From positions 1 through 64,000 of the forward strand of contig JAGVMN010000004.1 in assembly GCA_020053795.1 (NCBI GenBank): 64,000 nucleotides of DNA, given 5' to 3'. Made by a program: the position numbers and the translations under genes. This document shows, in pieces, positions 3,452-59,622 of the stretch (the first letter of the stretch is position 1; each line of letters begins with the position of its first letter). Under the pieces are notes generated by a model. It ran no database searches. It saw only the letters and a list, made by a program, of their open reading frames with translations, and was not told the DNA's origin. This stretch comes from Bacteroidia bacterium (lineage in GTDB: Bacteria; Bacteroidota; Bacteroidia; NS11-12g; UBA9320).

Positions 3452-3463
3452 AAATGCCGACTC

Positions 3464-7228: not shown

Positions 7229-7311
7229 ATTCTTCTCTTCGGAACTCCAACAATACCTTAAACGGTTAGGCGATTTTTAGCTTTGTAAATTATTTACATT
7301 ACGCAAAAATA

Positions 7312-8750: not shown

Positions 8751-8868
8751 AAATAGTGATCAATGGAAAAGTAAATTGCTTTTCAACAGGCATTCCTTAC
8801 AAACCACAAATAGAACTGTCCTCAGTTTTGACTGATAAGCGTACCTTATTTTTTCAATTGTGGACTTT

Positions 8869-9390
8869 TTATTTCTTTCGCTCCATTCTTAATCCTCGTT
8901 CCATTAGGAAATCATTTATGTCAATGCATTTTACACCATTCTTAATAGCAACAGCAGGAATTTTGTTGTGTTTCGCTTTGTTCTCATTGGTTATCAGAAC
9001 AGAGTTATGAACCTTACAATATCCGATTAGGTAAGGGTCAGCTTCTTCTTTTCCTTCCGCTTGCTTCTTCGCATCAAAAAATCCCGTACTGAATTCTTCA
9101 TTTACAATTGGAATTGCAGCATTGATACTTGCTCCGTCAGTTTTTACTACAAAATGTTTTTTCCATTTCTTAACCCAGTTTTTTAAAAAATCTTGTTTGC
9201 CTTCATAACTGTTTATTTCATCTTCAACAAAATCTATTGTTCTGAAAGTGCCTTGTGCGATCAAGTCTTCAATTTCATCCCAAATTGCTTTGAACACAGG
9301 GTTGTCATACTTGAACAAATATTCAAGATTGATTAGGCCGTTCGTGTCAATGACATAAATTGTCTGTCCAGGGGTGAAATCTAATTGCAT
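8869..9390 (-). CDS. DUF4411 family PIN-like domain protein, putative toxin
   Basis: YVIDTNGLINLE N-terminal acidic motif, KEEADPYLIGYCKVHNSVLITNENKAK; begins 2 nt after the stop of the XRE/ImmA gene. Confidence 0.85.
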   Translation of the reverse strand: MQLDFTPGQTIYVIDTNGLINLEYLFKYDNPVFKAIWDEIEDLIAQGTFRTIDFVEDEINSYEGKQDFLKNWVKKWKKHFVVKTDGASINAAIPIVNEEFSTGFFDAKKQAEGKEEADPYLIGYCKVHNSVLITNENKAKHNKIPAVAIKNGVKCIDINDFLMERGLRMERKK

Positions 9391-9392
9391 TA

Positions 9393-10541
9393 TCAGCCAT
9401 TCAGTAGTTGACGGGTTTTCGAAATGTAAGACAACTTAATACCTATAAAATCAGAGAGGTCTTTTAAATCAATTCTGTTTTGGTCAAAAGCCGAAAACGC
9501 TAGTGAGATATAGGTCCTGCCTTTTTCTTGAATGGCTTCTTTAGCAAGGTTTCTTCCTTCGGGAGTTTTGCTTCTCCCAAATGATGGTTTATTCCACACC
9601 TGATGTTTCTCATTGTAAAATGCCGCTGTGGTTAGCTTGTTTTCAAGCAAACTTCTGAGAATAGCTAAAGGCCCTGCATGAAAATAATTTCCAAGAGTAG
9701 TCAAATCTTTTAATCGCCAAATTTTATTACCTGCCAGTTTTTGTTCTTGCACAATATTCATTTGCAGGATTTCAGCAGAAGGAATTATTACTTCTGCTGA
9801 AAAAGCATTGCACCATTTTTCAATTTCAATAGTTGATTTCTCCGATAAGTCGCACAAACCGCCTTCGTTCAAAATGATGTGTCCTAACTCATGAAACAGA
9901 GTAAATATTTTTGCTGTTGCAGGTTCACCACCTCTTTTGATACCGATAATTGGAATTGCTTCATCGGTCAAAGAAAATCCTCTCAACCTATCTTGCGTCA
10001 AACCCAACTGGAATACTGCAACGCCAAGCGATTCAACTTTTTCAATGTATGCTTCCAAAGCATGATTGATGTTCTTTATTTCTCTTAACTCGTCAAGATT
10101 TAAAAACTGGCGAAGTCTAATTGCAACCAATTGCGGTTGGTCTTTTATAGAAGCAAAAAAGCTGAACTTAGGAATTTCAATTCCAAATTCCTGTTTCAAT
10201 TCAAAGAATGATTGTGATAAAGCACGGGCTTTGCGAATTGCCATGATTGACTTTTCGTGAAAGTTGCCAAGGTCTTTTGAATCAATTGTTCGTCTGTCTT
10301 TCGATAATGGTTTTTCCTTTGGTGGTTCTTTCAGAAGGAGCGTTGCAATGGTTCGTTTGTATGCTTTTGAAAACTCCTTCAACTCGTCTAAGGTGATTGG
10401 CTTTTCGCCGTCTTCCAACTGTGCCATTCTTTTGACTGATACTCCTGTTTTTTCTGCTGCCTGGTTTCGGTTTATGGCAAGCGATTCCCTTGCCCAAACA
10501 AGAACTTTGTGATTAACTTCTATGTGAATATTGTCGGACAT
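9393..10541 (-). CDS. XRE-family HTH plus ImmA/IrrE family metallopeptidase, putative antitoxin/regulator
   Basis: N-terminal HTH (LAINRNQAAEKTGVSVKRMAQLEDGEKPI) and FHELGHIILNEGG. The ORF runs to 10571, but a TAACTTTG -7 box at 10558-10551 supports starting at MSDNIHIE (10541). Confidence 0.9.
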   Translation of the reverse strand: MSDNIHIEVNHKVLVWARESLAINRNQAAEKTGVSVKRMAQLEDGEKPITLDELKEFSKAYKRTIATLLLKEPPKEKPLSKDRRTIDSKDLGNFHEKSIMAIRKARALSQSFFELKQEFGIEIPKFSFFASIKDQPQLVAIRLRQFLNLDELREIKNINHALEAYIEKVESLGVAVFQLGLTQDRLRGFSLTDEAIPIIGIKRGGEPATAKIFTLFHELGHIILNEGGLCDLSEKSTIEIEKWCNAFSAEVIIPSAEILQMNIVQEQKLAGNKIWRLKDLTTLGNYFHAGPLAILRSLLENKLTTAAFYNEKHQVWNKPSFGRSKTPEGRNLAKEAIQEKGRTYISLAFSAFDQNRIDLKDLSDFIGIKLSYISKTRQLLNG

Positions 10542-10550
10542 ATTTCTGTT

Positions 10551-10558
10551 CAAAGTTA
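10551..10558 (-). promoter_or_regulatory. Putative -7 element TAACTTTG for the XRE/ImmA-DUF4411 operon
   Basis: Matches TAnnTTTG, 9 nt upstream of the revised ATG. No convincing -33 TTG at canonical spacing. Confidence 0.35.
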
Positions 10559-10578
10559 GAAATATTTTCAAGTGTTTT

Positions 10579-10767
10579 CTATTCTTCAGTCACCAAAGTA
10601 ATTTTCTCCTCACTCATGGCATATTCCCATAGTTCAACTTTCTTTATTGTCGCTCTTATTTGTTCCAGTATAGTCTGGGTTTCTCTTGGAAACCCTGCTG
10701 TGTATTCATCAAGATCTTTGGCCGGAGTGGTCTTTATAAGGCAAAAATACAATTCCTTAATTGCCAA
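10579..10767 (-). pseudogene. Truncated N-terminal DUF1801 fragment (copy B)
   Basis: IKTTPAKDLDEYTAGFPRETQTILEQIRATIKK followed by an unrelated tail. The position matching the ATG of copy A is ATA here. Confidence 0.7.
10638..10741. repeat. Direct repeat copy B flanking the XRE/DUF4411 cassette
   Basis: 104 bp aligning in the same orientation to 8649-8747. Confidence 0.85.
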
Positions 10768-10844
10768 GAAAGATTTGCATATTTGGAATTCAGATTAATA
10801 CTTGACAAGTGAAAAACACCTGAAACCTATAAAATTTTAAAACA

Positions 10845-10881
10845 CAAAAACCCCACCACCAACAAACAGGCAGCAGGGTTT
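10845..10881 (-). terminator. Rho-independent terminator-like hairpin downstream of the VWA gene
   Basis: Minus strand AAACCCTGCTGCC-loop-GGTGGTGGGGTTTTTG: 13-bp stem if G-U pairs are allowed, followed by a short T run. Confidence 0.6.
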
Positions 10882-10906
10882 GTAAACCAACTTGAAAAAC
10901 CCGAAT

Positions 10907-12163
10907 TTATTCTTTCACGGTACCTTTCAGTTCTATGCCTTTGCCGCCTGTTTGTTTCTTCATGGTGCTGTAAACCTTGTTGGAGAAACTGTTGGAACTG
11001 ACATCTGATTCCGATGCTGTTTTGGTTTTGATGTACTCGTTTCGTTTTGATATATTTAGCTGCAATGCTGCCCGGGCAGAGTCGCGATCGGCTTTCATTT
11101 TTTGCAGATAGGCTGTCCTTTGGGCCACCGTCAAGGGTTGCAGGGTTTCTGATAAAAGCTCTTTGCGGATGGTATCAACTTTCACCACACCGTTGGCGTA
11201 GTCTGTCACCAGATCGTTTTTGAAATAGACGTCTTTGGTCACACCCTTAGTGGTTTTGTACTCTGCACGGCTGGCATTTTCGCTGGATTTCCCTTTGCTG
11301 TAAATGTCGTTTGCCTGCACTTTGCTACTTTCTTTTGAGACTCTAATTGTGTACGTACCGTAATAAACCACGGTGTTGTCAATGGTGTTTTGCAATCGGG
11401 CAATGTCATCATCATAAGGAGTGGTTAGCACATAGCCGTTGGCATTTTGATCTACAGGAATATAATCCCCGCCGGTGATCATAGCCACTTCACGCCAAAC
11501 TTGTTCGGCACCGGCACAGTTGCCCATTTTCAGGGTATTGATATAAATGCCTTTTTTCACCGCCTCGCGACAGGTGACCGGATATTTAACATCGTTTTGG
11601 TAATCCATATGTGGCGGACAATCACCCACCTGAAACACCGCTTTGTAAACGGCGGTGTCCGCATACCACTGAAACTTATTGACGGCATCGAACAAAGCCT
11701 GATTGACACTTTCGGGCGAATCGCCGCCTCCGGTGGCCACCATGTCCATCAGTTTGCCATAAACAGAGTCTATGTCTTCTGTAAATTCAATTCTTTTGGT
11801 TACAAAGTCATCACCACGGTCGCGGTAAAACACCATCCCGATTTGTAATTCGGGTTTGGGATCGGCCTGAAGAAGGCTGCTGGCGATGCTCCAGATTTTT
11901 TGCTTGGCTGTGGCAATCAGTCCACCCATGCTTCCGGTAACATCGAGGCAAAACACCAATTGGATGCGTTTGCTCTGCTCCAAAGTTGGTTGACCCTCAG
12001 AATTGAGATTGTTAAGATTTGGATTTTGAGAAATAGGGGGTTGAAGTTGGTGAGGTTGAACGAGAATACTTTGGGGATGATTCCACTCCTTGTCGGGTTG
12101 TGCCGTTGTACTGCCCAGGCATGTCACACATACCCAAAGGCCAATGATTGTTGTTGCTTTCAT
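10907..12163 (-). CDS. Secreted VWA domain-containing protein
   Basis: Signal peptide; VFCLDVTGSMGGLIATAKQKIWSIA MIDAS-like motif. Confidence 0.85.
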   Translation of the reverse strand: MKATTIIGLWVCVTCLGSTTAQPDKEWNHPQSILVQPHQLQPPISQNPNLNNLNSEGQPTLEQSKRIQLVFCLDVTGSMGGLIATAKQKIWSIASSLLQADPKPELQIGMVFYRDRGDDFVTKRIEFTEDIDSVYGKLMDMVATGGGDSPESVNQALFDAVNKFQWYADTAVYKAVFQVGDCPPHMDYQNDVKYPVTCREAVKKGIYINTLKMGNCAGAEQVWREVAMITGGDYIPVDQNANGYVLTTPYDDDIARLQNTIDNTVVYYGTYTIRVSKESSKVQANDIYSKGKSSENASRAEYKTTKGVTKDVYFKNDLVTDYANGVVKVDTIRKELLSETLQPLTVAQRTAYLQKMKADRDSARAALQLNISKRNEYIKTKTASESDVSSNSFSNKVYSTMKKQTGGKGIELKGTVKE

Positions 12164-12204
12164 AATTTTAGGATTTATTTTTTGCTTTAAGTTTTCACTC
12201 TATT

Positions 12205-12298
12205 GGCCCCTGAGTTTGTCGAAGGGCTCTTTTAATTTGAGCCGCGAAGCATCGCGGCTTTACTTTGGGTTTGTACCCTGACCGAAGTCGAAGGGTCA
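12205..12298. repeat. REP-like palindromic repeat element
   Basis: Two related units (CCCCTGAGTTTGTCGAAGGGC and ACCCTGACCGAAGTCGAAGGGTC) flank a perfect hairpin AGCCGCGA-AGCA-TCGCGGCT (12240-12259). Confidence 0.65.
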
Positions 12299-13315
12299 CT
12301 TCTTATAGTAGTTCAAGTGAATTTTCTGTCCGTTGCTTTTCAGCATGGTACCACTTTGCATTACCTGTGTTTCTTGTTTGTCTTCGTCCTGCAGAAATTC
12401 GCTGAGAAAAGCCATGACCCTTGATGCGGCAATGGCCACAACTGAACCATAAGTGATGGCATCAACGGCCGCAGATTTAATCAGTTGCGGAGACTGTTTG
12501 CGGAACATCTGGTTGGTGGCAAACAAATCTGCACTGATGATGGTATCCCCTGTGACGGCTACAAAGCCTATATAATTGGAGTCTTCCAACATCAGTTTTT
12601 CATAGTGCTTCATATATTTGGCTACTTCAGTATTCAGGGCATCGGAGTTTTGAAGGGCTGCATAGGTGCCGGAGGAAGTTTGTGATTTGTTTTTCTTAGT
12701 GGCATCGGCCACTTCTTCCCAAACCTTGCCCTGGTTTTTATCAACGACGGCTTTCCTTCTAACCTGTCCGGTTGCGACTCCAATGGTACCGTTAAACTGG
12801 TATCCGCTGTTTTGTGGCGTCCATCGGCCATGCTCCACACAAAAAACCGATACCTGCACTTTGCCACTCTTAGGTGGCAACATTACATCCTGCCCAATGA
12901 CCCGGTCCTGCTTTCCGCCGGTAACAACTTCCCCTGCTAAAATCATAATGGTGTCTTTAGAAATGTTTTCGATCTCCAATGTGTTGACGGTACCATCTCC
13001 CAATTCAGTAACCTTAATTTTTTTTGCTTTCAAAGCTTCCTGCAAACTGGTGTGATTGCCAATGCTTTTATACTCGTTTCTAAGGGTTTCGTTGGCACGC
13101 AGCATATAGATACGCAGGTTGCCGTAGGTGAAGCGGTCTTCCATTTTTTTGAAGTCGCTGTTTTCGTTCAGTGTGTATTTGCCGTTTTCCTGGCTGACAA
13201 AAGTTGGGTTGCCGACACTGATGTTTTGAAGGTTTAGTTGTGCCCTCGATGTTTCAAAGGCAAACAGTGCAATAATAAAAAGGTATTTTTTCATGACGTT
13301 TTGTGTTAAATTCAA
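12296..13315 (-). CDS. ARPP-1/DUF6569-like secreted protein
   Basis: Signal peptide (from MKKYLFIIALFAFETSRAQ); IENISKDTIMILAGEVVTGGKQDRVIGQDVMLPPKSGKVQVSVFCVEHGRW resembles the ARPP-1 family. Confidence 0.65.
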   Translation of the reverse strand: MNLTQNVMKKYLFIIALFAFETSRAQLNLQNISVGNPTFVSQENGKYTLNENSDFKKMEDRFTYGNLRIYMLRANETLRNEYKSIGNHTSLQEALKAKKIKVTELGDGTVNTLEIENISKDTIMILAGEVVTGGKQDRVIGQDVMLPPKSGKVQVSVFCVEHGRWTPQNSGYQFNGTIGVATGQVRRKAVVDKNQGKVWEEVADATKKNKSQTSSGTYAALQNSDALNTEVAKYMKHYEKLMLEDSNYIGFVAVTGDTIISADLFATNQMFRKQSPQLIKSAAVDAITYGSVVAIAASRVMAFLSEFLQDEDKQETQVMQSGTMLKSNGQKIHLNYYKK

Positions 13316-13443
13316 TTCAAAGGTCTGGTGCCTTTTTTAACTATTTTTTTGAAATGAGTGAAACGCCGTGGCAAATGAGTGAATGCTTACCTTTTGCTTG
13401 TGAACAGGCATTATAGCCAAAAGAAAAACCCCGAATTCAGATT

Positions 13444-15423
13444 ATGGCATTTTTTCGCTGCTTATCTTTGCTTGAGTTTTTACAGGAAACATTGAAAATA
13501 ACATTTGTCATAGTGTTCATTCTGATTACCATTCAGGGGTTTTGCCAAACCAGTGGTGGTAGGGAAAATGTGACAAAAAAAGCCAAACAGGTAAGTTCTT
13601 CTACGCCTATGGAATTGGTGAACGAGGCCAACAAACGCTCGGAAACAGATGCTGCCAAAAGTATGGAACTTGCTACCACTGCTCTTGAAAGGAGTTTGAG
13701 TCAGAAGGATAAAAAGGGAGAATATTATTCTTACAATACCCTCGGAACACTCTATTACAATATCGGCAACTGGGCCAAAGCGGTGCAATATTTCACGCTT
13801 GCCCGCAACGGTTTCACAAGCATCAAAGACGAAAAAGGAAAATCCTATTCCGAAAAGTATCTGGCTCTGGCTCTGGAAAAACAAAAGAACTATGGCGAGG
13901 CTCTAAAGGTAACATCTTCCGCACCGAGTAGGGTAAGCAGTAAAGAAGAAGAAGTCAGAAGTAAGTATAATAAGGCCCGGCTAAAATCAAAAGCCGGTAA
14001 AGACAAAGAAGCCATTTCTGAATTGAAATCACTGGCAAGGGACACCACACTTTCTATTGAAAACAAAATTCAGATTTATAAGGAACTGGGAGATTTATAC
14101 GTGGCAAGTAATGATACCGCTAGTGCTTTTAAAGCTTATGATGAGGTTTTGCAGGTAGAAAACGAAGGGACGTATCAGTTAAATTTATCCAAAACCGGAA
14201 AAGTGGGATATTTTGACGTGCTAAAAAAAGTGAGCGACCTTAACATCAAAAGCGGAAATGAAGCAGATAATTTCCTGCTTCAGAATACCATTCTGGCTCA
14301 GGGCTTGAAAAGCAAAGACCCTGATCTGGTGCAGGCTGCCAACCTGAACATCGGCACCACGCTGATGAGTCAGGATCAGGAAATTAAAGCCATTCCCTTT
14401 TTATTTACGAGTGCAAGCATTGCCCGTAGCCGCAGCAATCCGGTCGAAGAGCAGAAAAGCGTGAAGGAACTGGCTCAGGCCTACGAAAATCTGGGGCAAT
14501 ACGACAAGGCGTTGGATGTTTACAAGCGATATGTGCAATTGTCGGATTCTTTTAAAATCCTGCAGGCCGGAAGTGAGGAAGCCGCTTTGGCTTTAAATGC
14601 GGAATTTCTGAAGCAGGAAGACCGAATACGGGGACTGATGGACAGTCAAAAGGAAAAAGAAGTCAGCATTAAAAGGCAAAGAAATATTCTCTGGACGTTG
14701 GGTGGTGGGCTCATGCTTTTTGTATTGCTCACCTGGGCTTTGGTTCGGAACATTCGTCAAAAGCAAAAGGCCAATATGCTCATCAAACTGCAAAGTCTGA
14801 GAACACAGATGAATCCGCATTTCATTTTTAACTCGCTGAACAGTGTCAATAATTTCATCGCCAAGAATGACGAACGCAGTGCCAACCGTTACTTGTCAGA
14901 GTTCAGCAAGCTGATGCGGACCGTCCTTAAAAACAGTGATCAGGACTTTGTGAGCCTGGCTTCTGAGATTCAAACATTGGGCATCTATCTTGAGCTGGAG
15001 CATTTCCGGTTCGGTGATAAATTCGAGTACCGCCTTGAAGTGGCCCCTGAAGTAGAGCCCGAGGCGGTGCAAATTCCCTCCATGCTCATACAACCCTATA
15101 TCGAAAATGCGATATGGCACGGGCTTCGGTACAAAGAAGAAAAGGGCGTATTGGAAGTGAAGTTTTTTATTGAGGGCAAGAAGTTGTATTGCAGCATTTT
15201 TGATAACGGGATTGGCCGCAGGAAATCGGCGGAACTGAAAACCGATCATCAAAAGATCTATCAGAGCACCGGAATAAAAAACACCAAAGAACGGATTGAA
15301 ATACTGAACAAGCTGCACGGTACCTCACTTGGCATCACCATACAGGACATAGAGGAAGGCGAAGAAAAGGGGACATTGGTTAAGATTTCGCTGCCATACA
15401 TTATGGAGGAGATAGTTGTATGA
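13444..15423 (+). CDS. TPR-containing LytS-type sensor histidine kinase
   Basis: TPR repeats, TM helix (ILWTLGGGLMLFVLLTWALV), LRTQMNPHFIFNSLNSVNNFI H-box, HATPase motifs (IPSMLIQPYIENAIWHG, DNGIGR). Confidence 0.92.
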   Translation: MAFFRCLSLLEFLQETLKITFVIVFILITIQGFCQTSGGRENVTKKAKQVSSSTPMELVNEANKRSETDAAKSMELATTALERSLSQKDKKGEYYSYNTLGTLYYNIGNWAKAVQYFTLARNGFTSIKDEKGKSYSEKYLALALEKQKNYGEALKVTSSAPSRVSSKEEEVRSKYNKARLKSKAGKDKEAISELKSLARDTTLSIENKIQIYKELGDLYVASNDTASAFKAYDEVLQVENEGTYQLNLSKTGKVGYFDVLKKVSDLNIKSGNEADNFLLQNTILAQGLKSKDPDLVQAANLNIGTTLMSQDQEIKAIPFLFTSASIARSRSNPVEEQKSVKELAQAYENLGQYDKALDVYKRYVQLSDSFKILQAGSEEAALALNAEFLKQEDRIRGLMDSQKEKEVSIKRQRNILWTLGGGLMLFVLLTWALVRNIRQKQKANMLIKLQSLRTQMNPHFIFNSLNSVNNFIAKNDERSANRYLSEFSKLMRTVLKNSDQDFVSLASEIQTLGIYLELEHFRFGDKFEYRLEVAPEVEPEAVQIPSMLIQPYIENAIWHGLRYKEEKGVLEVKFFIEGKKLYCSIFDNGIGRRKSAELKTDHQKIYQSTGIKNTKERIEILNKLHGTSLGITIQDIEEGEEKGTLVKISLPYIMEEIVV

Positions 15424-15496
15424 AGATTTTGACTGATCTGTTTTGTCACATAATATTTTTCGGTTATTCGATGTTTAGAAAAACTCTTTCAAGACC

Positions 15497-16363
15497 ATGA
15501 TGAAAGCACATATTTCGACATTCTTTTTTGTTTTTACATTTCTGAATTCTGTCAATGGGAAACAATTTGAAAATGATAAAGGAAGTAATTCAGACTCTAT
15601 TAAAATTCCCTTTTATTTTGGACTTAATGTTAATGGTCCAACTTTTATTCAGATTAAAAATTCAATGGACAGTATTGTATTTAATCATGAAGGCGATTGG
15701 AAGGATTGGGGCTCCCAGTATCAAAAGACTTTATTAAAGGGGAAGTATCGAATTTTCATAAAGGTCGATCAAAACAGCTTGAATACCTTGATTGCAGAAG
15801 AACATTTTGAAATAATTGGGAATGAAACGCTAATAGATGTTTCTGTAGTTTTAATTAGAGGAAGGACACCTTGTAAAGAACTAATAGTAACTAAATACTA
15901 CGGTAATGAATTTGATATCAAGCTTAAGAGAATATGGAACCCACAATCCCAATTTGAAATGGATTCTTCCTTTCTTCCTGATTATGAAGTATTGAATTCA
16001 TCTGATTCTTTGCTTTATGGAATCTATCATAGGTTTTCTTCATCAATGTCAATTAGCTGGGTTCAACTTCACTATATTACTTTTTTAAGGTATCAAAAAT
16101 TTGAGAATGGTAATTGGTTGACTATTTCCTGCAATGCCCCGAGAATTCAAATGGGACTCAAGCCAAATGAGAAAGGTTGTACACTGAAGGATATGCGACT
16201 TGATTGTAATACTAATAACTTTCAAAAAAAAATTAGATATCGTGTCATTTTTCAGTACGGAATTAATAATACTATTGTTAGAATTCCTGAAAAGAGGGAT
16301 GAATCATTTACTTATATTGAACCTCATGTTTACCAAATATATGATGAATTTACAATCGAATAA
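15497..16363 (+). CDS. Hypothetical secreted protein
   Basis: 288-aa ORF with signal peptide; AT-rich compared with neighbours; no family recognised. Confidence 0.65.
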   Translation: MMKAHISTFFFVFTFLNSVNGKQFENDKGSNSDSIKIPFYFGLNVNGPTFIQIKNSMDSIVFNHEGDWKDWGSQYQKTLLKGKYRIFIKVDQNSLNTLIAEEHFEIIGNETLIDVSVVLIRGRTPCKELIVTKYYGNEFDIKLKRIWNPQSQFEMDSSFLPDYEVLNSSDSLLYGIYHRFSSSMSISWVQLHYITFLRYQKFENGNWLTISCNAPRIQMGLKPNEKGCTLKDMRLDCNTNNFQKKIRYRVIFQYGINNTIVRIPEKRDESFTYIEPHVYQIYDEFTIE

Positions 16364-16533
16364 TATTCGACCACAAGTATATTGTAATGTTGGTTTTTGG
16401 TTTGCAAATTTTCTTCTCCTAACTACCATTGTTCCGGTTGGAAAGTTTTGTGTCCAAAGCGGCACTTAAATCGGCCTCTGATAAATAGCGAGGTGTGGTA
16501 AACGAAATTTAATAATAGTCTGAGTGCATAATT

Positions 16534-17286
16534 ATGAGCATTAAAACAATCACCGCCCTCATCGTTGACGACGAAGCTGCCGCCAGAGAAACACTGTTGG
16601 CTTATATCGGAAAATACTGTGAAGGTGTCAACGTGATTGGCGAGGCGGCAGACGTTCCCTCGGCTGTTGAGACGATCAACCGCCTGAAACCGGAATTGGT
16701 TTTTCTGGATGTGGAAATGCCTTTCGGCAACGCCTTCGATGTATTGGAAAATACAGCCGCTATTGGATTCGAGACCATCTTTATAACCGCCTACAGCGAA
16801 TATGCTATCAACGCGTTTAACTTCAGTGCTGCCTATTATATCCTGAAACCGGTTGACATTGGCGAACTGATTAAAGCGGTGAACAAAGTGAGAACCTCCC
16901 TGAGTCAAAAATCAGTTCCGCGGGTTTCGCAGGTTTTGTATGAGAATATGCGGCATCCCGAAAACAAAAAATTGGTCTTGCCCACTACCACCGGGTTCGA
17001 AGTGGTGGCCATCAAAGACATTGTTCGCCTCAGCGGCAGCAGCAACTATACCGAGATATTCCTCAGCGACGGGAAAAAGAAAGTAGTCAGCAAGGTATTA
17101 AAATTCTTCGAAGAAATGCTTTCCGATCAAGGATTTATGCGGGTACACAAGAGTCATATCATCAACCTAGAACAAATAAAAAAATATCATAAGGGCAGGG
17201 GAGGGAGTTTAGAGTTGAGCGATGGTGTCGAGATAGAAGTTTCACCCAACAAGAAGCAAGAGTTGCTTGGGCATTTCGGGGGTTGA
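16534..17286 (+). CDS. LytTR family response regulator
   Basis: Receiver domain (ALIVDDEAAARETL, LVFLDVEMPFGNAFDVL) and C-terminal LytTR domain (FMRVHKSHIINLEQI). Confidence 0.95.
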   Translation: MSIKTITALIVDDEAAARETLLAYIGKYCEGVNVIGEAADVPSAVETINRLKPELVFLDVEMPFGNAFDVLENTAAIGFETIFITAYSEYAINAFNFSAAYYILKPVDIGELIKAVNKVRTSLSQKSVPRVSQVLYENMRHPENKKLVLPTTTGFEVVAIKDIVRLSGSSNYTEIFLSDGKKKVVSKVLKFFEEMLSDQGFMRVHKSHIINLEQIKKYHKGRGGSLELSDGVEIEVSPNKKQELLGHFGG

Positions 17287-17413
17287 TCAATCAATTGAAT
17301 TTTGATTTCGTTTTCAATCATTTTGATTCTTATTTCCATAGTAAGAACAACTTAGGTTTAAGTTCTTTGTTAAATGCTTCGAACACATTATCATCGCTAA
17401 AAAAGATATCGCC

Positions 17414-18586
17414 ATGAAAAAACAATTACTCATTCTTTCAGTCATTTTATCACCCGGTTTGCTGAAGGCTCAAATCACCCTGACCCAGGCAAATGCACCT
17501 ACTGTGTCTATATTGACTACGAGTGACACAGCAAATTCGGTCAAATTATTGGCAACCTATCCCGATTTGTCGGCCAAGACAAATGCCACCTGGGACATGA
17601 CATTGGTTAAGGACTCATTATTGTTTTCAACATTTAATGGAGCCATTACAAGTGCTGTTTTCCCAAATGCGACCTTTACAATTAAAAAGGAGTATTCATT
17701 TGCAGGTTCGTTGAAGTATTTCACCCAGGCAATGTTGGCGGTAACAGCCAACGGCGTTGTTCAGTATGGGGAGAGCATCAATCGTCAGGCGATTTCGCTG
17801 GCGGCAGTGAGCGGCGGAGCGAATGATTCATTAATTTTTCCAAAACAGGATGTCATTTTTTCCGCTGACAAGGTAGAAATAAAATACCCTTGCGGCATGG
17901 GTACCACCTGGGTTTCTTCACCCAAATTTACCACCAATTTTGGTATTACAATAGCTAGTTTGGGTTTGAACAAAACTAATGGTAAAAGACAAAGTGAATT
18001 GACTGTAACAAATACAGTTGTTGGTTGGGGAAAAATGAGGGTAAATGACAAAGGGGGTAACCCGACGGAGTATATGGATGTGTTGCAGTTGCAGATTGAA
18101 AATTCTATTAAAGACAGTTTCTTTTTAGCCGGAAAACCTGCACCAACAGCACTTTTGAATGCATTTGGATTGACACAGGGGCAAGTCTCAAAGTCCTACG
18201 AAAGGCAATTTCTCCGCAAAGGTGAATTCAGGCCATTGGTAGAAATTTCTTATACGGATAATACGTATAGCAAGAAGAACTTCTGTGAAGTTCACAAACA
18301 ACGGTTTCAGGCTGCTGCCGGTACAACGGATGTAACCACAAATCATTTTGAGGTTTACCCGAATCCGGTAACCGATTATTCTTTTATGATCGGTGGTGAT
18401 GATTTAAAGAAGGGAAACTTGAAATTTATTCTCCTCAATTCTCTCGGACAGGAAGTAATTGGTGCCGAAGTCCCTTCGAATGGTGAGGTGAATCTGTCAG
18501 AGTCCATTTCTTCCGGGCTGTATCAGCTTCAGTTAATGGCGGATGATCAGGTTTTGGGTGTGAAGAAAATTCATATTATCAACTAA
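17414..18586 (+). CDS. T9SS type A sorting domain-containing secreted protein
   Basis: Signal peptide; C-terminal FEVYPNPVTDYSFMIGG...ISSGLYQLQLMADDQVLGVKKIHIIN. Confidence 0.85.
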   Translation: MKKQLLILSVILSPGLLKAQITLTQANAPTVSILTTSDTANSVKLLATYPDLSAKTNATWDMTLVKDSLLFSTFNGAITSAVFPNATFTIKKEYSFAGSLKYFTQAMLAVTANGVVQYGESINRQAISLAAVSGGANDSLIFPKQDVIFSADKVEIKYPCGMGTTWVSSPKFTTNFGITIASLGLNKTNGKRQSELTVTNTVVGWGKMRVNDKGGNPTEYMDVLQLQIENSIKDSFFLAGKPAPTALLNAFGLTQGQVSKSYERQFLRKGEFRPLVEISYTDNTYSKKNFCEVHKQRFQAAAGTTDVTTNHFEVYPNPVTDYSFMIGGDDLKKGNLKFILLNSLGQEVIGAEVPSNGEVNLSESISSGLYQLQLMADDQVLGVKKIHIIN

Positions 18587-18608
18587 GAATCTATCCTTTA
18601 AAGAATAA

Positions 18609-18636
18609 AGAGCCTCTGAATTCAGGGGCTCTTTTG
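18609..18636 (+). terminator. Rho-independent terminator
   Basis: AGAGCCTCTGAATTCAGGGGCTCTTTT, 22 nt downstream of the 18586 stop. Confidence 0.75.
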
Positions 18637-18938
18637 TGCAAACAATTTTGAGTATAAACTTCAAAGTCATTTAGTTAGGGGTTAATTGTTACCTTTTAGA
18701 GCCGTAGGTTCGAATGATATTGTAAGGCCGGACTTTAGTCTTGTCAAGAAGCAACCACAATGAGGGATATCGGATTGGTGAAGATGCTACGTGGATTAAA
18801 TGGGTCGTCCCGTACATATGGGTCCTAACGTTTCAATCACTTTTGTAAACGGACTGAAGTCAGTTGTTACAATATTGTCCGTCCCTTCGGGACTGATTTG
18901 TTAACCAAATAACATTGATAAAAACACCATCTTTTGCC

Positions 18939-19070
18939 TTATTTGGTTTTACCTTTTGAAGTTGGTTTTGGTTTCAGTGACCGGACATAATGGTAACTCG
19001 TCTCAAAATAATTTTTCAATTCTTCAGTCTTTTCCAACAGGCTGAGGGGCACTTCAACGTATTCTTTCAT
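18939..19070 (-). CDS. Small 43-aa ORF, hypothetical
   Basis: Hand translation: MKEYVEVPLSLLEKTEELKNYFETSYHYVRSLKPKPTSKGKTK*. Below the 60-aa cutoff of the provided track. Confidence 0.4.
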   Translation of the reverse strand: MKEYVEVPLSLLEKTEELKNYFETSYHYVRSLKPKPTSKGKTK

Positions 19071-19203
19071 AATGACTCCGTGAGACAGAATTAAGTTGGT
19101 TTGGTCGAGGTTTAACTTTCAGGAGGGACGCTGTGTTCTTTTTTTGTTGGCATATATGAGGATTAATTTTGTGCAAAAGTGCTGGTAACTAAAGCTTTTT
19201 CCC

Positions 19204-19827
19204 TCATTCAGCCAAATATTTGTCAATTACGTTATGGTCTGTCGAGAAGTACATTCCTTCGTACGGCCCAAACACTTGTCCGTTCGTAAATATACTGTCT
19301 ATTTTTCCGTCTGTCCGTTCGAACACTAATTTCATTTTCTTGGCATATTTCCACGATCCCCGTTTATATTTTGCAAAACCAATGTCGCTGATAAAATCAT
19401 CTAAGTGTTGAACATCAATCGTGTCTAAAATGGTAATTATTTGTGCTCTGCGAATTGTCTGTTTGTAGAGATAGTGCTGCATTTTGGTTGACCCGCTTTG
19501 ATAATTTAAAAATGATTGTCGTTCAGAAAGAAAAAATGGAATAAAAACGATAACTCCAATCATAGTAACTGCCAGACTTGTTAAAAATGGTTTTTCGTTT
19601 GCAATCATTTTCTTAGTCAAGAAGTAGTTTATCAAAAGAACTATTATTGATACAACACTAAGCTGAACGAATATATCATTGGCTATAGAGTTTGCAATTT
19701 CAAGTCCTTTGTCTTTTCCCAACTGAACCACTATTAGTCTATAGGTTAATGCAGAACCCATAATGATGACATAAATAAAAGTCAAGTTTAAAATGACTAA
19801 AAGTCCAATGCCAATTTTGCGTCTCAT
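19204..19827 (-). CDS. Hypothetical membrane protein (about 3 predicted TM segments)
   Basis: 207-aa ORF with hydrophobic segments LLVILNLTFIYVIIMG, VSIIVLLINYFL, LAVTMIGVIVFIPFFL. Confidence 0.65.
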   Translation of the reverse strand: MRRKIGIGLLVILNLTFIYVIIMGSALTYRLIVVQLGKDKGLEIANSIANDIFVQLSVVSIIVLLINYFLTKKMIANEKPFLTSLAVTMIGVIVFIPFFLSERQSFLNYQSGSTKMQHYLYKQTIRRAQIITILDTIDVQHLDDFISDIGFAKYKRGSWKYAKKMKLVFERTDGKIDSIFTNGQVFGPYEGMYFSTDHNVIDKYLAE

Positions 19828-51962: not shown

Positions 51963-54071
51963 TTACGAAATTCTGCTCCAGTCTTTTCCGGGGCTTTTTT
52001 GATTGAGGTAGTTGACTAATGGTTGATTAGATGCATGTTGAAGAAGAGGATCTTCGGATAAGATTTGTTCGGCTTGAAACCGGGCGACTTTAAGCATTTC
52101 TTCATCATCAACAATACTGGCTATTTTAAGGTCGGCTATTCCGCTTTGCTTGGTACCTTCAATATCACCCGGGCCGCGAAGTTTCAAATCTAGTTCTGCT
52201 AGTTTGAAGCCATCATTGGTGGAAAGCATAGCCTTGATTCTTTCTCTGCCGTTATAACTGAGTTTTTGGCCACTCATGAGAATGCAATAGCTCTGATCAC
52301 CACCGCGGCCAACTCTACCTCTAAGCTGATGCAATTGCGACAGTCCGAAACTTTCAGCATTCTCAATGAGCATCACCGTAGCGTTTGGTACATTAATGCC
52401 AACTTCTATTACGGTTGTTGAAACAAGAATGTGTATTTCTCCTTTTTTGAAACGGGTCATAATCATTTCCTTTTCATGAGCTTTCATTCTTCCATGAATA
52501 ATCTCCACCTGATATTTTGGACGTTTAAAGAAATTAGACAACAATTCGAAACCATCATTGAGGTTTTTATACTCCAGTTTTTCGGAATCTTCTATCAAAG
52601 GGAAGACGACATATACCTGTCGTCCTTTGTCAATCTCTGTTTGAATGAATTGAAAAACTTCCATTCTACGGGCTTCATTTCGATGGGCAGTGATGATGGG
52701 TACTCTGCCCAAAGGCATTTCATCAATAACTGAAACATCTAAATCACCATAAAAAGTCATAGCCAAAGTACGTGGAATTGGAGTGGCAGTCATCACTAAA
52801 ATGTGGGGTACCTCCTCACTTTTATCCCACATACGGGCTCTCTGGGCAACGCCAAATCGATGCTGTTCGTCAATAATGACTAAGCCCTGCCTTTTCATTT
52901 TCACCTTGTCTTCAATCAACGCATGAGTGCCAATCAGGATTTGAATGGTTCCATTTTCAAGGCCTTCATGAATGCGTTTTCTTTCAGCAGACTTTGTAGA
53001 ACCGGTTAACAAAGCACATTGCAAACCCACTTTTTCCATTTCAGTATGCATGTTGTTAAAATGTTGTGAGGCCAGTATTTCCGTTGGGGCCATTAGGCTG
53101 CTTTGTGTGCCGTTGTCTGCCGCAATCAGCATGTTGAGCAAAGCAACAACAGATTTGCCGCTTCCTACATCACCCTGCAACAAGCGATTCATTTGGCGAC
53201 CTGTTTGGGTGTCTTGCCTTATCTCTTTGATCACTTTCTTTTGGGCATCTGTCAGCTCGAACGACAAAACGTCCTTGTAATATTTGTTAAAATATTCGCC
53301 TACCACGGCAAAACGGATGCCTTTTAAAGTCCGTTTGTTGCGGTTTTTTATGCGGACAATTCTCATTTGGAGTAAAAACAATTCCTCGAACTTGATTCTG
53401 TTCTCGGCACTGATTCTGGACTGATTGTCTTTCGGAATATGAATGTTTGTAAAAGCCGCTTTTCGCCCAATGAGTTTGTGGGCGTCCAAAAGAGATTTAG
53501 GAAGGATTTCAGGCACTTCAAAATTGGGATGATTGATAAGTGACGAGATGAATTGGTGGATTGTTCTGCTTGTAATGTTTTTTGTCTTAAGACGCTCTGT
53601 AACATTGTACACAGGTTGAAATCCCTGATGTTTTTTCTCCTGGTCGGTAGTTTCCATTTCGGGATGAACAAAACTGATTTGGTTTTTAAATAAATTTGGC
53701 TTGCCGAAAACTATATATTCCTTCCCGGCTTTCAGGTTTTCCTTTACCCACTTTTGTCCCTGAAACCAAACCAAATCGCAGTAGCCGCTTTCATCTTTGA
53801 ACAAAGCCGTCAGTCTCTTCCCTTTGTCTTTGCCTGTTTGTTCTATCTTGCCCAAAATCCCTTTGATTTGGATATATGGTTGGTTGCCATCGAGATCCTG
53901 TATTTTATGCCAAACAGATCGGTCGATATATCTGAACGGAAAATGATACAAGAGGTCTTCGAACGTATATATTTGAAGTTCATTTTTCAGAAGTTCGGCC
54001 CTCATTGGTCCCACCCCTTTGAGATATTCAACAGGTGTATCGAGAAAATCGTTTCTGCCCGAATGGTTCAC
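51963..54071 (-). CDS. recG: ATP-dependent DNA helicase RecG
   Basis: PVEYLKGVGPMRAELL; helicase motifs LLQGDVGSGKSVVAL, IIDEQHRFGVAQR, MTATPIPRTLAM, LRGRVGRGGDQSYCIL. Confidence 0.97.
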   Translation of the reverse strand: MNHSGRNDFLDTPVEYLKGVGPMRAELLKNELQIYTFEDLLYHFPFRYIDRSVWHKIQDLDGNQPYIQIKGILGKIEQTGKDKGKRLTALFKDESGYCDLVWFQGQKWVKENLKAGKEYIVFGKPNLFKNQISFVHPEMETTDQEKKHQGFQPVYNVTERLKTKNITSRTIHQFISSLINHPNFEVPEILPKSLLDAHKLIGRKAAFTNIHIPKDNQSRISAENRIKFEELFLLQMRIVRIKNRNKRTLKGIRFAVVGEYFNKYYKDVLSFELTDAQKKVIKEIRQDTQTGRQMNRLLQGDVGSGKSVVALLNMLIAADNGTQSSLMAPTEILASQHFNNMHTEMEKVGLQCALLTGSTKSAERKRIHEGLENGTIQILIGTHALIEDKVKMKRQGLVIIDEQHRFGVAQRARMWDKSEEVPHILVMTATPIPRTLAMTFYGDLDVSVIDEMPLGRVPIITAHRNEARRMEVFQFIQTEIDKGRQVYVVFPLIEDSEKLEYKNLNDGFELLSNFFKRPKYQVEIIHGRMKAHEKEMIMTRFKKGEIHILVSTTVIEVGINVPNATVMLIENAESFGLSQLHQLRGRVGRGGDQSYCILMSGQKLSYNGRERIKAMLSTNDGFKLAELDLKLRGPGDIEGTKQSGIADLKIASIVDDEEMLKVARFQAEQILSEDPLLQHASNQPLVNYLNQKSPGKDWSRIS

Positions 54072-55048
54072 TTGTATAATTTACTAAGCAGGGCTCCTAT
54101 TTCCATCATCCAGGCAATGCCCATGTGAACGATGATGCCACCGGCTATACTCCTGCTGTAATAGGCTATAATACCCAAAAGCGTTCCTCCAAAGAAAGAA
54201 CTGATGGTTTCGCCAAGGGGTTTTCCAAAATGAATGAAAACATAAAAAGAGGCCATGGGCAAAATGACTGATGGGCCCGCTATAGCTGCAAATGCCAGAA
54301 TGAGAAATCCGCGGAAAAAAAATTCAATGAAGATAAAATCAATGCCATACAGAAATTCGTAAAGTACAAAGAATTTGTGATCAGGCTGATGACCAAATGT
54401 GAGGCCCGGCAATTCGCCTCCCCTGGGATAGGTTCCCAAAAAATCCGATTGGAAGGACGCCCATGCAATCAATGGAACCATTACCAACAACATAATCAAA
54501 TAGGGGCGTGTATCGTAGTTTTTTAGAGTAAATCCATACAATGGTTGATTTTTTCGATCAGTAAAAAACCAATACGCAGTAATTGGAATCAGAATAATCA
54601 ACATACGAAAAATGGTTTGTATAACCCTGTACCAGTAGATATCGAGCCTCTCCTTCTGTACCAATTCATAAATAAACTGACCGTAAATATGCGAACAGGA
54701 ACGAATAGTGAAAATGCTCAAAGCAAAAATGACAAGGAACCAAAACTTGGGTTCAGAAAGGTGTTCCAGCTTACCTGTGATTAGAGCTTGCAACAAAAAC
54801 GACCCGATAAATGGAATGGCATATAGCAGAAAATAGTAAAGGAAGATGAAATTGTTCCATGCGAGTTCGTCAGACTTTGCCTCAAGAAAGGGATGAAAAT
54901 AATTAAAATACACACCTGTTGCCGAAAAAATCATAATGGAAAAAAACAAAACAGGCGAGAATTGTTCGTGGTAAAACTGTTTGAGGTACGAAATAACTTT
55001 TTTCACGGTGCCAAATTTTGCATTCGCAATTTTAATATAAGTCGTCAT
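54068..55048 (-). CDS. CPBP family intramembrane metalloprotease
   Basis: Multi-TM; IFIEFFFRGFL (E..xR motif), FYVFIHFGKPLGE, GIIVHMGIAWMME. Confidence 0.82.
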   Translation of the reverse strand: MTTYIKIANAKFGTVKKVISYLKQFYHEQFSPVLFFSIMIFSATGVYFNYFHPFLEAKSDELAWNNFIFLYYFLLYAIPFIGSFLLQALITGKLEHLSEPKFWFLVIFALSIFTIRSCSHIYGQFIYELVQKERLDIYWYRVIQTIFRMLIILIPITAYWFFTDRKNQPLYGFTLKNYDTRPYLIMLLVMVPLIAWASFQSDFLGTYPRGGELPGLTFGHQPDHKFFVLYEFLYGIDFIFIEFFFRGFLILAFAAIAGPSVILPMASFYVFIHFGKPLGETISSFFGGTLLGIIAYYSRSIAGGIIVHMGIAWMMEIGALLSKLYK

Positions 55049-55783: not shown

Positions 55784-56356
55784 ATGAAAAAACCACTCTT
55801 AGTAAAATATGTTCTTCCATTTATTCAGTGGTATTCCCTGATGATTCTTATAGCCATCGGGATGGATTATTTGTTGCATCTCTTCGATATGGTTTTCATT
55901 GGTCGTTATCTGGGTTATTGGGGAACATTCGCTATTGTCATTTCCTTTGCCTATTCGCTTCGCAAACGAAAAGTTATCAAATTTGGCTCTCCCAAAAACT
56001 GGCTGACGTTTCATAATTATTTGGCATGGGCGGGTTCAATAATGTTACTTGTGCATGCCGGAATTCACTTTAATGCCGTGTTGCCTTGGCTTGCCATACT
56101 TACCTTGCTGAGTGCAGTGGCAAGCGGACTGGTTGGTAAGTTTCTTTTAAAAAGGGCTTATGAATCCCTGAATGAAAAACGATATTTATTGATCAGACAG
56201 GGTATGACTAATGATGAATTAGGCAAAAAACTGTTTTTCGATTCGATCACAGTAGATATGATGAAGAAATGGAGGGTTGTTCATTTGCCGGTTACCTTAC
56301 TGCTGCTTATTTTGTCATTGATGCACATCATTACCATAATTATTTTCAGTAAATGA
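55784..56356 (+). CDS. Diheme b-type cytochrome-like membrane protein
   Basis: 190 aa, multi-TM; two helices each carry His residues 14 apart (FHNYLAWAGSIMLLVH and VHLPVTLLLLILSLMH). Confidence 0.65.
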   Translation: MKKPLLVKYVLPFIQWYSLMILIAIGMDYLLHLFDMVFIGRYLGYWGTFAIVISFAYSLRKRKVIKFGSPKNWLTFHNYLAWAGSIMLLVHAGIHFNAVLPWLAILTLLSAVASGLVGKFLLKRAYESLNEKRYLLIRQGMTNDELGKKLFFDSITVDMMKKWRVVHLPVTLLLLILSLMHIITIIIFSK

Positions 56357-57261
56357 GAACCACCGTAGTAATGAGCATTGTCCTTTTGTGTCTTGGACTC
56401 ATGTACCGTTTGCCACAGGTGATGATAAACCCGGGACAATTAATTGAAGGACATCAGAAAATAAAAGAAAAGTGCCTTACCTGTCATGTTCCTTATAAAG
56501 GTATTGGGAATGACAAATGCATATCATGCCATAAACTTTCGGAAATAGGGAAAGAATCGATGTATCAAACCCTTAAGAACAACAGAACTGGCAAAATTTT
56601 ATTTCACAAGGGTCTGGCAAATCAAAAATGCAGCGGATGCCATACCGATCACAAGGGCAGATATCCGGAAGCGTCTGTCAACAGCTTTAACCATGAAATG
56701 CTTGGAACAGCGAATCGAAACAATTGCAATAATTGTCATGGCAAACCACTAAATGACCTTCATAAACCTTTATCATCAGCCTGTCATAGCTGTCACAAAA
56801 CAGCGGGATGGAAAACGGACCTGTCATTTGATCATGAAATGATTCATGGTGCAGATAAACGTAACTGTGCGGGATGCCATAAAAAACCAGATAATGACTA
56901 TCATCAGTTTATTAAAAGCAACTGCGGAAAATGTCATAACCTAAACAAATGGAAGCCTTCCTCTTTTGATCATTCAACTTATTTCCGACTGGACAGTGAT
57001 CATCAGACAACATGTAAAACATGTCATCAGAACAATAATTTCAACACATTCACCTGCTATGGTTGCCATGAGCATTCAGAAAGAAATATAAAGGCTGAAC
57101 ACAATGAGGAGGGAATATACGGTTTCAACGATTGTGCAGGGTGTCACAAAAGTGGTGATAAATATGGCATCAATATGAATGGCAATGAGGGTGGGCGGTT
57201 GAATCAAAAAGAAAATAATAAAGCAAGGGAGCAACATCACTCAGAAGAGGATGACGATTAG
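56353..57261 (+). CDS. Membrane-anchored decaheme c-type cytochrome (cytochrome c3/c7-like)
   Basis: Ten CxxCH motifs (CLTCH, CISCH, CSGCH, CNNCH, CHSCH, CAGCH, CGKCH, CKTCH, CYGCH, CAGCH); N-terminal signal/anchor; ATGA overlap with the upstream gene. Confidence 0.92.
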   Translation: MRTTVVMSIVLLCLGLMYRLPQVMINPGQLIEGHQKIKEKCLTCHVPYKGIGNDKCISCHKLSEIGKESMYQTLKNNRTGKILFHKGLANQKCSGCHTDHKGRYPEASVNSFNHEMLGTANRNNCNNCHGKPLNDLHKPLSSACHSCHKTAGWKTDLSFDHEMIHGADKRNCAGCHKKPDNDYHQFIKSNCGKCHNLNKWKPSSFDHSTYFRLDSDHQTTCKTCHQNNNFNTFTCYGCHEHSERNIKAEHNEEGIYGFNDCAGCHKSGDKYGINMNGNEGGRLNQKENNKAREQHHSEEDDD

Positions 57262-57396: not shown

Positions 57397-59622
57397 TCAA
57401 AAATCAATTCCCTCAATATACTCGGTAGGGGTTTTGGGTTCGGCGGTGTTACAATCGAGCGGCACGATTATTTCAGTATCGGGTTTCTTAAATCCTTCTT
57501 TTGATATTTTTAATTTTTCGTCGTTGTAAATCTTTTTCATGAACATGCCAACTATTGGTAGTGCTGTGCTTGCACCTTGTCCCAATGCCATACTCCTGAA
57601 ATGCACCTGTCTGTCTTCGGCACCTACCCAGCAGCCGCTAACCAAATCAGGGGTAATGGCCATAAACCAACCATCAGAGTTGTTCTGAGTGGTTCCGGTT
57701 TTGGCAGCTACTGGCACTGTTACATATCGTCTCAGGCGACTTCCTGTTCCTCCATCTACTACTTTTTCCAGCATCTTGAGCATCACATAGGCCGTTTGAG
57801 GACGCATGGCTTCTACCTGTCTTGGAAAAAACTCTTCAAGAATGTTGCCGTTTTTGTCTTCTATACGTGTAATGAAAATAGGTTCGGTCCATTCGCCATC
57901 GTTGGCAAAAGCACTGTATGCCCCCACCATTTCAAAAACCGAAACATCCATCGTTCCCAGGCAAATGGAAGGATAGGGCATGAATTTTCGCGTGTCAATT
58001 CCAAGCTTATCTGAGATATCCCTAACCGCAAAAGGCGATCGGGGTCCCAGTCTTTTCATGACTCTCGCGGTTACGGTGTTCAGTGATAGTTTCAAACCTG
58101 TGTACAAGGTGACTTCCGGGGCCGGTGCCTTTCCACTATTGGCTGGTGTCCATGTTTGCCCGTCTTCCAACTCGAGGGTCACAGGCCCGGTAGGTACCAT
58201 TTCACATGGTTCTATTTTGTCGTCATCAAGAGCACGGGCATATACAATCGGTTTGAAGGTAGAACCCACCTGCCGGGTTGCAGTTTTGTTCACATGATCG
58301 TATTGAAAATGCCTGAGATTGATGCCACCAACCCAAGCTTTGATAAAACCGGTATGCGGCTCCATACTCATAAAACCGGTATGCAGGATTTGTTTGGAGT
58401 ATTTCAATGAATCTAACGGACTCATCAGGGTATCCCTGTCTCCGTTCCAACTAAATATGGTCATGTGTACTTTCCTGTTCATGTAAAAGTTGATGGAATC
58501 CTCCCTTCCTCCAAACTTGTTTTTGAGATAAATGTATCTTGCAGTGCGTTTCATGTGTTTTGGGATATAATCCTTATCAACACGCCAAACCTCTTCTTCA
58601 CTTCGCCAAGGTTCCGACTTCAGTTTTTTGGTTTCTTCGAAAAACTGTTTTTGCAAATTGGCCATATGCTCGGCCACAACTTCTTCGGCGTATTTCTGCA
58701 TTTTTGAGTTGATGGTTGTGTAAATTTTCAACCCGTCGTTATACATGTTATAGCCTTTTTTTTCGCACCAGTCAGCAAGATAGTTTCTCAGGTATTCTCT
58801 GAAGTACGTGGCCAATCCTTTGTTATGAGTGGTAAGCTGATAATCGAGAACCAAGTCCAGATTTTTTAGAGAATCACGCTCCTCTTTGTTGATATAGCCG
58901 TATTTTGTCATTTGATTGAGGACAGTATTTCTTCGATTCACCGCTCTATCCGGATGATTTACCGGATGATAAATGGCTGATGCCTTAAGCATAGCTACCA
59001 AAACGGCAGCCTCTTCAACTTTCAGATCTTTGGTCTCCTTATTAAAAAACTTTTTGGAGGCAGATTTTATTCCATAACTATTTTCCCATGGAACCGTATT
59101 GAAATACATCAGAATGATTTCATCTTTGGTGTATCGCTTTTCCAGTGCTGTGGCTATAATCCACTCTTTGATCTTTTGCAACATCCGTTGAATATAATTT
59201 CGTCTTTCGGGATGAAACATGTTTTTTGCCAATTGCTGGGTTATGGTGCTTCCTCCTCCTTTTTTTCCCAAAAAAATAACGGCCCGGAACAAACTCCTGA
59301 AATCTATTCCGGAATGTTTGTAAAACCTTGCATCTTCGGTTGCAACAAGAGCATAGATCATGTACTTAGGCAAGTCGTTTATATTGATGTTTGTACGGTC
59401 TTCTTGCGAATATATCTTTCCTATTATTTTTCCGTCTTCTGAATAAATTTCGGAGGCCAGCTTGGTTGAGGGATTTTCCAATTCATTGATGTCGGGCAAT
59501 TTGCCGAGCCAACCAAAAGAGGTAATCAAAATGATTGAAAAAAACAATAACAGGCCTATCCCGAAAATTTGCCAAAGCCGCTTAATAAGTATTGAGGTCA
59601 ACGGTGATTTTTTAGATGCCAC
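57397..59622 (-). CDS. Class A penicillin-binding protein 1A
   Basis: GT51 motifs (ATEDARFYKHSGID, GGSTITQQLAKN) and transpeptidase motifs (GSTFKPIVYA, AAKTGTTQNNSDGWF). Confidence 0.96.
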   Translation of the reverse strand: MASKKSPLTSILIKRLWQIFGIGLLLFFSIILITSFGWLGKLPDINELENPSTKLASEIYSEDGKIIGKIYSQEDRTNININDLPKYMIYALVATEDARFYKHSGIDFRSLFRAVIFLGKKGGGSTITQQLAKNMFHPERRNYIQRMLQKIKEWIIATALEKRYTKDEIILMYFNTVPWENSYGIKSASKKFFNKETKDLKVEEAAVLVAMLKASAIYHPVNHPDRAVNRRNTVLNQMTKYGYINKEERDSLKNLDLVLDYQLTTHNKGLATYFREYLRNYLADWCEKKGYNMYNDGLKIYTTINSKMQKYAEEVVAEHMANLQKQFFEETKKLKSEPWRSEEEVWRVDKDYIPKHMKRTARYIYLKNKFGGREDSINFYMNRKVHMTIFSWNGDRDTLMSPLDSLKYSKQILHTGFMSMEPHTGFIKAWVGGINLRHFQYDHVNKTATRQVGSTFKPIVYARALDDDKIEPCEMVPTGPVTLELEDGQTWTPANSGKAPAPEVTLYTGLKLSLNTVTARVMKRLGPRSPFAVRDISDKLGIDTRKFMPYPSICLGTMDVSVFEMVGAYSAFANDGEWTEPIFITRIEDKNGNILEEFFPRQVEAMRPQTAYVMLKMLEKVVDGGTGSRLRRYVTVPVAAKTGTTQNNSDGWFMAITPDLVSGCWVGAEDRQVHFRSMALGQGASTALPIVGMFMKKIYNDEKLKISKEGFKKPDTEIIVPLDCNTAEPKTPTEYIEGIDF

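Follow-up and report, generated by a model that had tools for sequence, protein, structure and literature searches.

In Geobacter, the quinone-linked CbcL and CbcBA systems couple b-type and multiheme c components at the inner membrane, as is predicted for the pair of genes described here, which we call B and C. Porin-cytochrome clusters of the PCC3 and PCC4 types, together with their inner-membrane protein (IMP), were described earlier (He et al. 2017, PMC5566968); they have been proposed for Fe(II) oxidation, and in the published model their IMPs exchange electrons with the quinone pool (PMC5566968). DUF4405/FezC proteins are another group of small b-type cytochromes that pass electrons through the membrane (PMC11334425). 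Analysis of a 64,000-nucleotide stretch of DNA from a Bacteroidia bacterium (the window), with comparisons across other genomes, indicates that the B-C pair is no new kind of system but a compact variant of the step performed by IMP and multiheme in PCC3-type systems, and that B and C very probably work together in moving electrons across the inner membrane.

The genes on either side, encoding a CPBP-type membrane protein upstream (54068-55048) and a penicillin-binding protein downstream (57397-59622), both named from sequence reading, lie on the minus strand, and B-C therefore forms an isolated two-gene unit (Table 1). A sequence-only reading of the window had delimited the two open reading frames and their ATGA overlap and had seen no reductase, iron-sulfur, nitrite or sulfite gene adjoining them, all of which holds. 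A 4-base overlap between B and C recurs in 18 of 28 relatives; apparent B-C fusions at three loci (L017, L025 and L035) in the first ORF pass proved to be read-through in ORF calling, B and C being separate, mostly overlapping genes. Promoter and terminator scans at the locus gave signals no better than shuffles, searches of Rfam and PHROGs yielded no matches, and B had no match in a plasmid collection.

Table 1. Features of the B-C locus in the window, and the related clusters L038 and L071 in the coordinates of their own records
Feature	Coordinates	Strand	Remarks
Gene B	55784..56356	+	190-aa five-helix membrane protein, predicted diheme b, short IMP-family member
B H32	55877..55879	+	invariant, 88/88; predicted periplasmic end of helix 1
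B helix, residues 70-94	55991..56065	+	first H-x13-H; H77 at 56012-56014, H91 at 56054-56056
B H95	56066-56068	+	invariant, 89/89; second of two additional His (with H32), predicted periplasmic side
B SGxxG (SGLVG), residues 114-118	56123..56137	+	fourth helix; common to PCC3/PCC4 IMPs
B helix, residues 164-187	56273..56344	+	second H-x13-H; H167 at 56282-56284, H181 at 56324-56326; W163 just before
ATGA, stop of B and start of C	56353..56356	+	translational coupling
Gene C	56353..57261	+	302-aa decaheme cytochrome c, N-terminal anchor, acidic C-terminus
C N-terminal hydrophobic segment	56359..56415	+	likely uncleaved membrane anchor, followed by conserved (N/S)PGxL motif
C heme domain, ten CxxCH	56473..57147	+	motif starts 56473, 56518, 56629, 56725, 56782, 56866, 56923, 57013, 57055, 57133
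L038 (G000:C75:3000-22000), PCC3-like cluster	8917-9759, 7583-8929, 5973-7586, 3895-5994, 2829-4112, 1170-2810	-	window's own genome, another contig
L071 (G321), complete PCC3-like operon ending in B-C	7128-19297	-	candidate single transcription unit

The histidines of B lie at positions 32, 77, 91, 95, 167 and 181, with H77/H91 and H167/H181 each 14 residues apart. Shuffling B at constant composition yields two such H-x13-H pairs in 0.6% of cases, and a chance origin is excluded by their conservation in 88-89 of 89 homologues (H77 and H91 each in 89/89, H167 and H181 each in 88/88). In the AlphaFold2 model (pLDDT 89.1, pTM 0.81), which places helices at residues 5-33, 37-54, 70-94, 99-138 and 164-187, each pair lies in one continuous helix, in keeping with the two His-paired helices noticed earlier; by the geometry of the 14-residue spacing, rather than from model coordinates, the members of a pair should fall on nearly the same helix face. 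Based on these features, B is predicted to be a diheme b cytochrome. Positive charges at its N-terminus and in the loops between helices 2 and 3 and helices 4 and 5 point, on a reading of the sequence, to a periplasmic C-terminus, beside C. Also conserved among the homologues are D28, a YS-RK motif, the SGxxG motif (S114, G115 and G118 kept in 88-89 of 89) and W163-R164, with W163, part of a W-x3-H motif in helix 5, present in 88/88. H32 and H95 are two further invariant histidines which did not figure in the sequence-only description, and could possibly constitute a quinone site, a docking site or ligands of a third heme.

No Pfam or NCBIfam family matched B above its cut-off: DUF4405 reached 13 bits (E 0.15; cut-off 26.7 bits), and neither Ferric_reduct (PF01794) nor PF01292 (cytochrome b561/Ni_hydr_CYTB) gave a match up to E 1. 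The best hit in a sequence search of the PDB was an ion exchanger at E 0.35, and a Foldseek search of the PDB with the B model recovered nothing at E 0.001, with b6 and b561 the only cytochromes among the weak matches listed. However, a profile built from 29 B sequences and used to search other genomes also retrieved, at much lower score, proteins mostly of 230-330 aa, including one in the window's own genome. Nearly all of these show H-x13-H twice, SGxxG and W-x3-H at nearly the same spacing as in B, and their neighborhoods contain multihemes of about 20 hemes, further large multihemes and often a porin-like protein. Profile-profile comparison with hhalign aligned B over its full length with the IMP-like proteins, which had been picked by motifs and PCC3-like gene context (probability 99.4, E 9.5e-22, 191 columns). 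This full-length homology, taken together with the common motifs and the PCC3-like neighborhoods of the relatives, establishes B as a short subfamily of the IMP family. The two share five helices, the H-x13-H pairs on helices 3 and 5, SGxxG on helix 4 (37 residues past the first His in B and most IMPs checked), W-x3-H ahead of the helix-5 pair and a gene adjoining that of a multiheme c protein. In contrast, B lacks the long loop between helices 4 and 5, and with 190 aa as against about 300 is no standard IMP. The helix-3 W-x3-H of IMPs is formed by W73 in the window's B, yet occurs in only 4 of 89 homologues.

C contains exactly ten CxxCH motifs and 15 other histidines, amounting to 30 aa per heme; three or more CxxCH arise in 0.04% of its shuffles. 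The heme count, the single N-terminal anchor and the F(D/N)H repeats (SFNHE, SFDHE, SFDHS) had all been read correctly from the letters, and the hydrophobic N-terminus shows no obvious cleavage site. C matches the class III-type multiheme cytochromes c (PF02085, Cytochrom_CIII; E 2.9e-14, 53.7 bits against a cut-off of 22.9), whereas NapC/NrfH gave no Pfam or NCBIfam match, and the NCBIfam models of OmcA/MtrC, the DmsE/MtrA decahemes and HmcA all scored far under cut-off. A PDB sequence search returned at best a cytochrome c7 (E 0.24). The AlphaFold2 model of C, computed by a method without hemes, is poor (pLDDT 59.5), apart from a helix at residues 2-19 with pLDDT about 90. The middle of the protein is a repeated two-heme module, and complete homologues mostly have 8, 10, 12, 14, 16 or 18 motifs, as counted in stop-to-stop frames, the few odd or low values including truncated, degenerate or read-through cases. 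Over its N-terminal 180 residues C aligns with the periplasmic 20-heme cytochromes of PCC3 (domain E of about 1e-19 to 1e-20); heme motifs inflate these scores, but the common SPGxL start lies outside them. Of 80 C proteins, drawn from distant phyla, 70 have a short acidic C-terminal tail (57240-57258 in the window), which often ends in DDD and may serve for docking.

The pair is a recurrent module well beyond Bacteroidota, with C directly downstream of B in 112 of the 115 loci examined (some genomes being counted twice); one of the three exceptions is at a contig end, and the other two are from the same genome. As labeled in the deposited records, many of which are MAGs, the hosts include Bacteroidota, Chlorobiota, Ignavibacteriota, Calditrichota, Acidobacteriota (Holophagales), Spirochaetota, a Deltaproteobacteria-labeled MAG, Alpha-, Beta- and Gammaproteobacteria, and Magnetococcales. 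It is widespread in two genera of a family recognized as Chlorobiaceae because two of its B proteins are identical to those of named Chlorobiaceae loci; within the window organism's own sampled family it occurs in 1 of 34 other genomes. In the tree of B proteins, Bacteroidota plus Ignavibacteria, Chlorobiaceae, and Proteobacteria are largely separate, and distances between B proteins correlate with those between C proteins (Spearman 0.57, Mantel p 0.002), a correlation to which shared host phylogeny contributes. A literature search, with subscription journals and preprints outside its coverage, found no account of the B-C pair or of the reductase-B-C operon described below. At one locus (L014:2409-3797, the Deltaproteobacteria-labeled MAG), about 270 stop-free in-frame residues precede B as a possible N-terminal extension, and in three Bacteroidota loci (L002, L005 and L006) a DUF2231-like membrane protein of about 160 aa, absent in the window, ends a few bases before B.

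The window's genome also encodes a PCC3-like cluster on another contig (L038), comprising a 280-aa IMP, an FAD/4Fe-4S reductase, multihemes with 20, 28 and 13 CxxCH, and a porin-like protein. In a second genome (L071) the two arrangements are united in the order IMP, TPR protein, FAD/4Fe-4S reductase, 20-heme, 19-heme, porin-like, 34-heme, small protein, B, C, suggesting that C there probably feeds, or is fed by, a porin-cytochrome conduit. PCC3-IMPs are commoner in B-C genomes, both in Burkholderiaceae (4/13 vs 7/188, p 0.003) and in the Bacteroidota phylum outside Chlorobiaceae (3/6 vs 28/316, the total being approximate, p 0.013), both tests ignoring shared ancestry. Nevertheless, homologues are not always part of a known larger complex, as Chlorobiaceae genomes with B-C gave no PCC3-IMP match and most B-C loci have no porin or outer-membrane cytochrome nearby. 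The partner of B has 8-18 hemes, in contrast to the periplasmic protein of about 20 or more that accompanies the IMP, and B-C loci usually lack the porin and extracellular multiheme of PCC3/PCC4 clusters; as the window pair has neither a porin nor additional multiheme genes alongside, we do not classify it as a PCC3 cluster.

The only recurrent linked redox partner of B across its relatives is an FAD/2Fe-2S NAD(P)H-type reductase. In 20 genomes of the proteobacterial clade, a count which includes one partial match (L020), the gene directly upstream of B encodes a hydrophobic N-terminus followed by FAD_binding_6, NAD_binding_1 and Fer2 domains, separated from B by 0-5 bases or overlapping it where measured. 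Linkage thus supports NAD(P)H as the likely input to B where this reductase is present. The search of the window genome and of other Bacteroidota and Chlorobiota B-C genomes turned up no close orthologue, and the NAD(P)H input is therefore not directly transferable to these phyla; candidates for an unlinked orthologue in Bacteroidota B-C genomes were only weaker generic relatives (92 bits in the window genome, perhaps of NqrF type). In 20 of 22 Bacteroidota loci, that of the window genome among them, the PCC3 IMP for its part adjoins an N-terminally anchored FAD/4Fe-4S reductase, a protein that combines two 4Fe-4S sites with a pyridine-nucleotide reductase domain; L071 is the only genome in which this enzyme is linked to B-C. 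Such a reductase goes unmentioned for the clusters treated in the PCC3 section of PMC5566968. Multihemes at Bacteroidota IMP loci (L161-L180) have up to 61 CxxCH (L171, 1521 aa). The occurrence of two unrelated NAD(P)H-type enzymes beside one diheme membrane family suggests feeding at the cytoplasmic end.

In light of this, we favor as probable a model in which B-C is a diheme transmembrane wire leading from a donor on the cytoplasmic side to the multiheme C. B would hold two bis-His b hemes, one ligated by H77/H167 towards the cytoplasm and the other by H91/H181 towards the periplasm, and would hand electrons to the multiheme wire C, tethered to the membrane on its periplasmic face. C would relay them to periplasmic or outer-membrane partners, namely PCC3-type conduits where present and other periplasmic redox proteins otherwise. 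In the proteobacterial clade the electrons would most likely pass from NAD(P)H through the anchored FAD/2Fe-2S reductase to B, whereas in the window organism the donor could be a cytoplasmic-side reductase encoded elsewhere, such as the FAD/4Fe-4S protein of the PCC3-like cluster, or menaquinol. More tentatively, as an idea with less than an even chance, reductase-B-C may conduct electrons across the membrane from NAD(P)H to multiheme c independently of quinones, and cytoplasmic NAD(P)H-type flavo-iron-sulfur reductases, in place of the quinone pool, may feed all members of the IMP family, those of PCC3 as well, B-C being the minimal core.

Alternatively, B could be a quinone-active diheme cytochrome b and B-C a two-subunit menaquinol:cytochrome c oxidoreductase, or the reverse, like Geobacter CbcL/CbcBA, a reading which we regard as a genuine contender while judging it somewhat improbable. 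It conforms to the PMC5566968 proposal for PCC3/PCC4 IMPs. Quinone-active b subunits typically have two transmembrane bis-His hemes, the invariant D28, H32, H95 and N97 might make up a quinone site on the predicted periplasmic side, and most non-proteobacterial loci have no linked reductase. Furthermore, in two Comamonadaceae loci (L024 and L026) B-C lies within a cbb3-oxidase cluster, after ccoNOP, ccoG and a small FixH-like gene and ahead of fnr (names from sequence reading), without a linked reductase although the tree places both inside the reductase-bearing clade, and a quinol-fed or oxidase-linked role fits this context as well. Against these points stands the fact that the recurrent linked partners are NAD(P)H-type reductases; thus, of the quinone-to-periplasm relay proposed in the sequence-only reading, the compact, conserved diheme-b/multiheme-c unit stands, but quinone input is not established. 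Neither COX1 nor a cytochrome bd gene was seen in the window genome, which is weak evidence because that genome is only 74% complete. It has two NrfD-family genes, possibly of alternative complex III (ACIII), on account of which B-C as a stand-in for bc1/ACIII was set aside and an extra quinol:cytochrome c enzyme may not be needed. Where no reductase is linked, as in the window, quinone may be the input.

The gene surroundings of B-C bear on the output side. A further reading, which we consider rather unlikely, is that the pair supplies electrons to periplasmic peroxidases, oxidases or other periplasmic reductases, with no relation to extracellular electron transfer. The absence of a porin from nearly all B-C loci agrees with this, as do the cbb3 genes adjoining the pair in Comamonadaceae and, in Nevskia (L031), a di-heme cytochrome c peroxidase-like gene downstream of it (name from sequence reading). 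However, no acceptor gene recurs across phyla at B-C loci, and the L071 operon and the enrichment of PCC3-IMPs in B-C genomes point to porin-cytochrome systems in part of the range. Inward flow is improbable. In that reading C would draw on a donor in the periplasm or outside the cell, Fe(II) for example, and B would deliver the electrons to quinones or, in an uphill step, to NAD(P)+. Fe(II) oxidation has been proposed for PCC3/PCC4, Chlorobiaceae and Magnetococcales are among the hosts, and one wire can run in both directions, but most loci lack an iron oxidase or outer-membrane partner, and the reduction of NAD(P)+ by typical donors is steeply uphill. Chlorobiaceae often have a separate gene for a DUF4405-like membrane protein and genes for a response regulator and a histidine kinase upstream of B-C; at four loci (L076, L077, L082 and L085) these lie directly upstream, an arrangement that suggests regulated expression.

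Under the favored model of a wire with a cytoplasmic-side donor, reductase-B-C would act as a split ferric reductase/NADPH oxidase (NOX)/MsrQ system with a multiheme c output. The likeness lies in the two stacked bis-His b hemes, which are predicted in B, and in the NAD(P)H/FAD enzyme encoded alongside B in Proteobacteria; unlike those systems, B does not match the Ferric_reduct model of Pfam, the reductase has a gene of its own and carries a 2Fe-2S domain, and the electrons would go to a multiheme c protein and not to O2, Fe or MsrP. The resemblance to Geobacter CbcL/CbcBA is one of general layout, B giving no match to the cytochrome b561 (Ni_hydr_CYTB) family, while DUF4405/FezC proteins are similar to B as small b-type membrane cytochromes, although B falls below the DUF4405 cut-off. 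For the inner-membrane crossing step in PCC3-type extracellular electron transfer, B-C offers a small two- or three-gene version. The pair is common in Chlorobiaceae and scattered in Proteobacteria, including cultured strains, and this step is therefore testable in tractable organisms. The linked NAD(P)H-type reductase is the most interesting lead, as it makes the electron source testable; if it is indeed the donor, these bacteria could feed cytoplasmic reducing power directly to multiheme wires in the periplasm, with no passage through the quinone pool.
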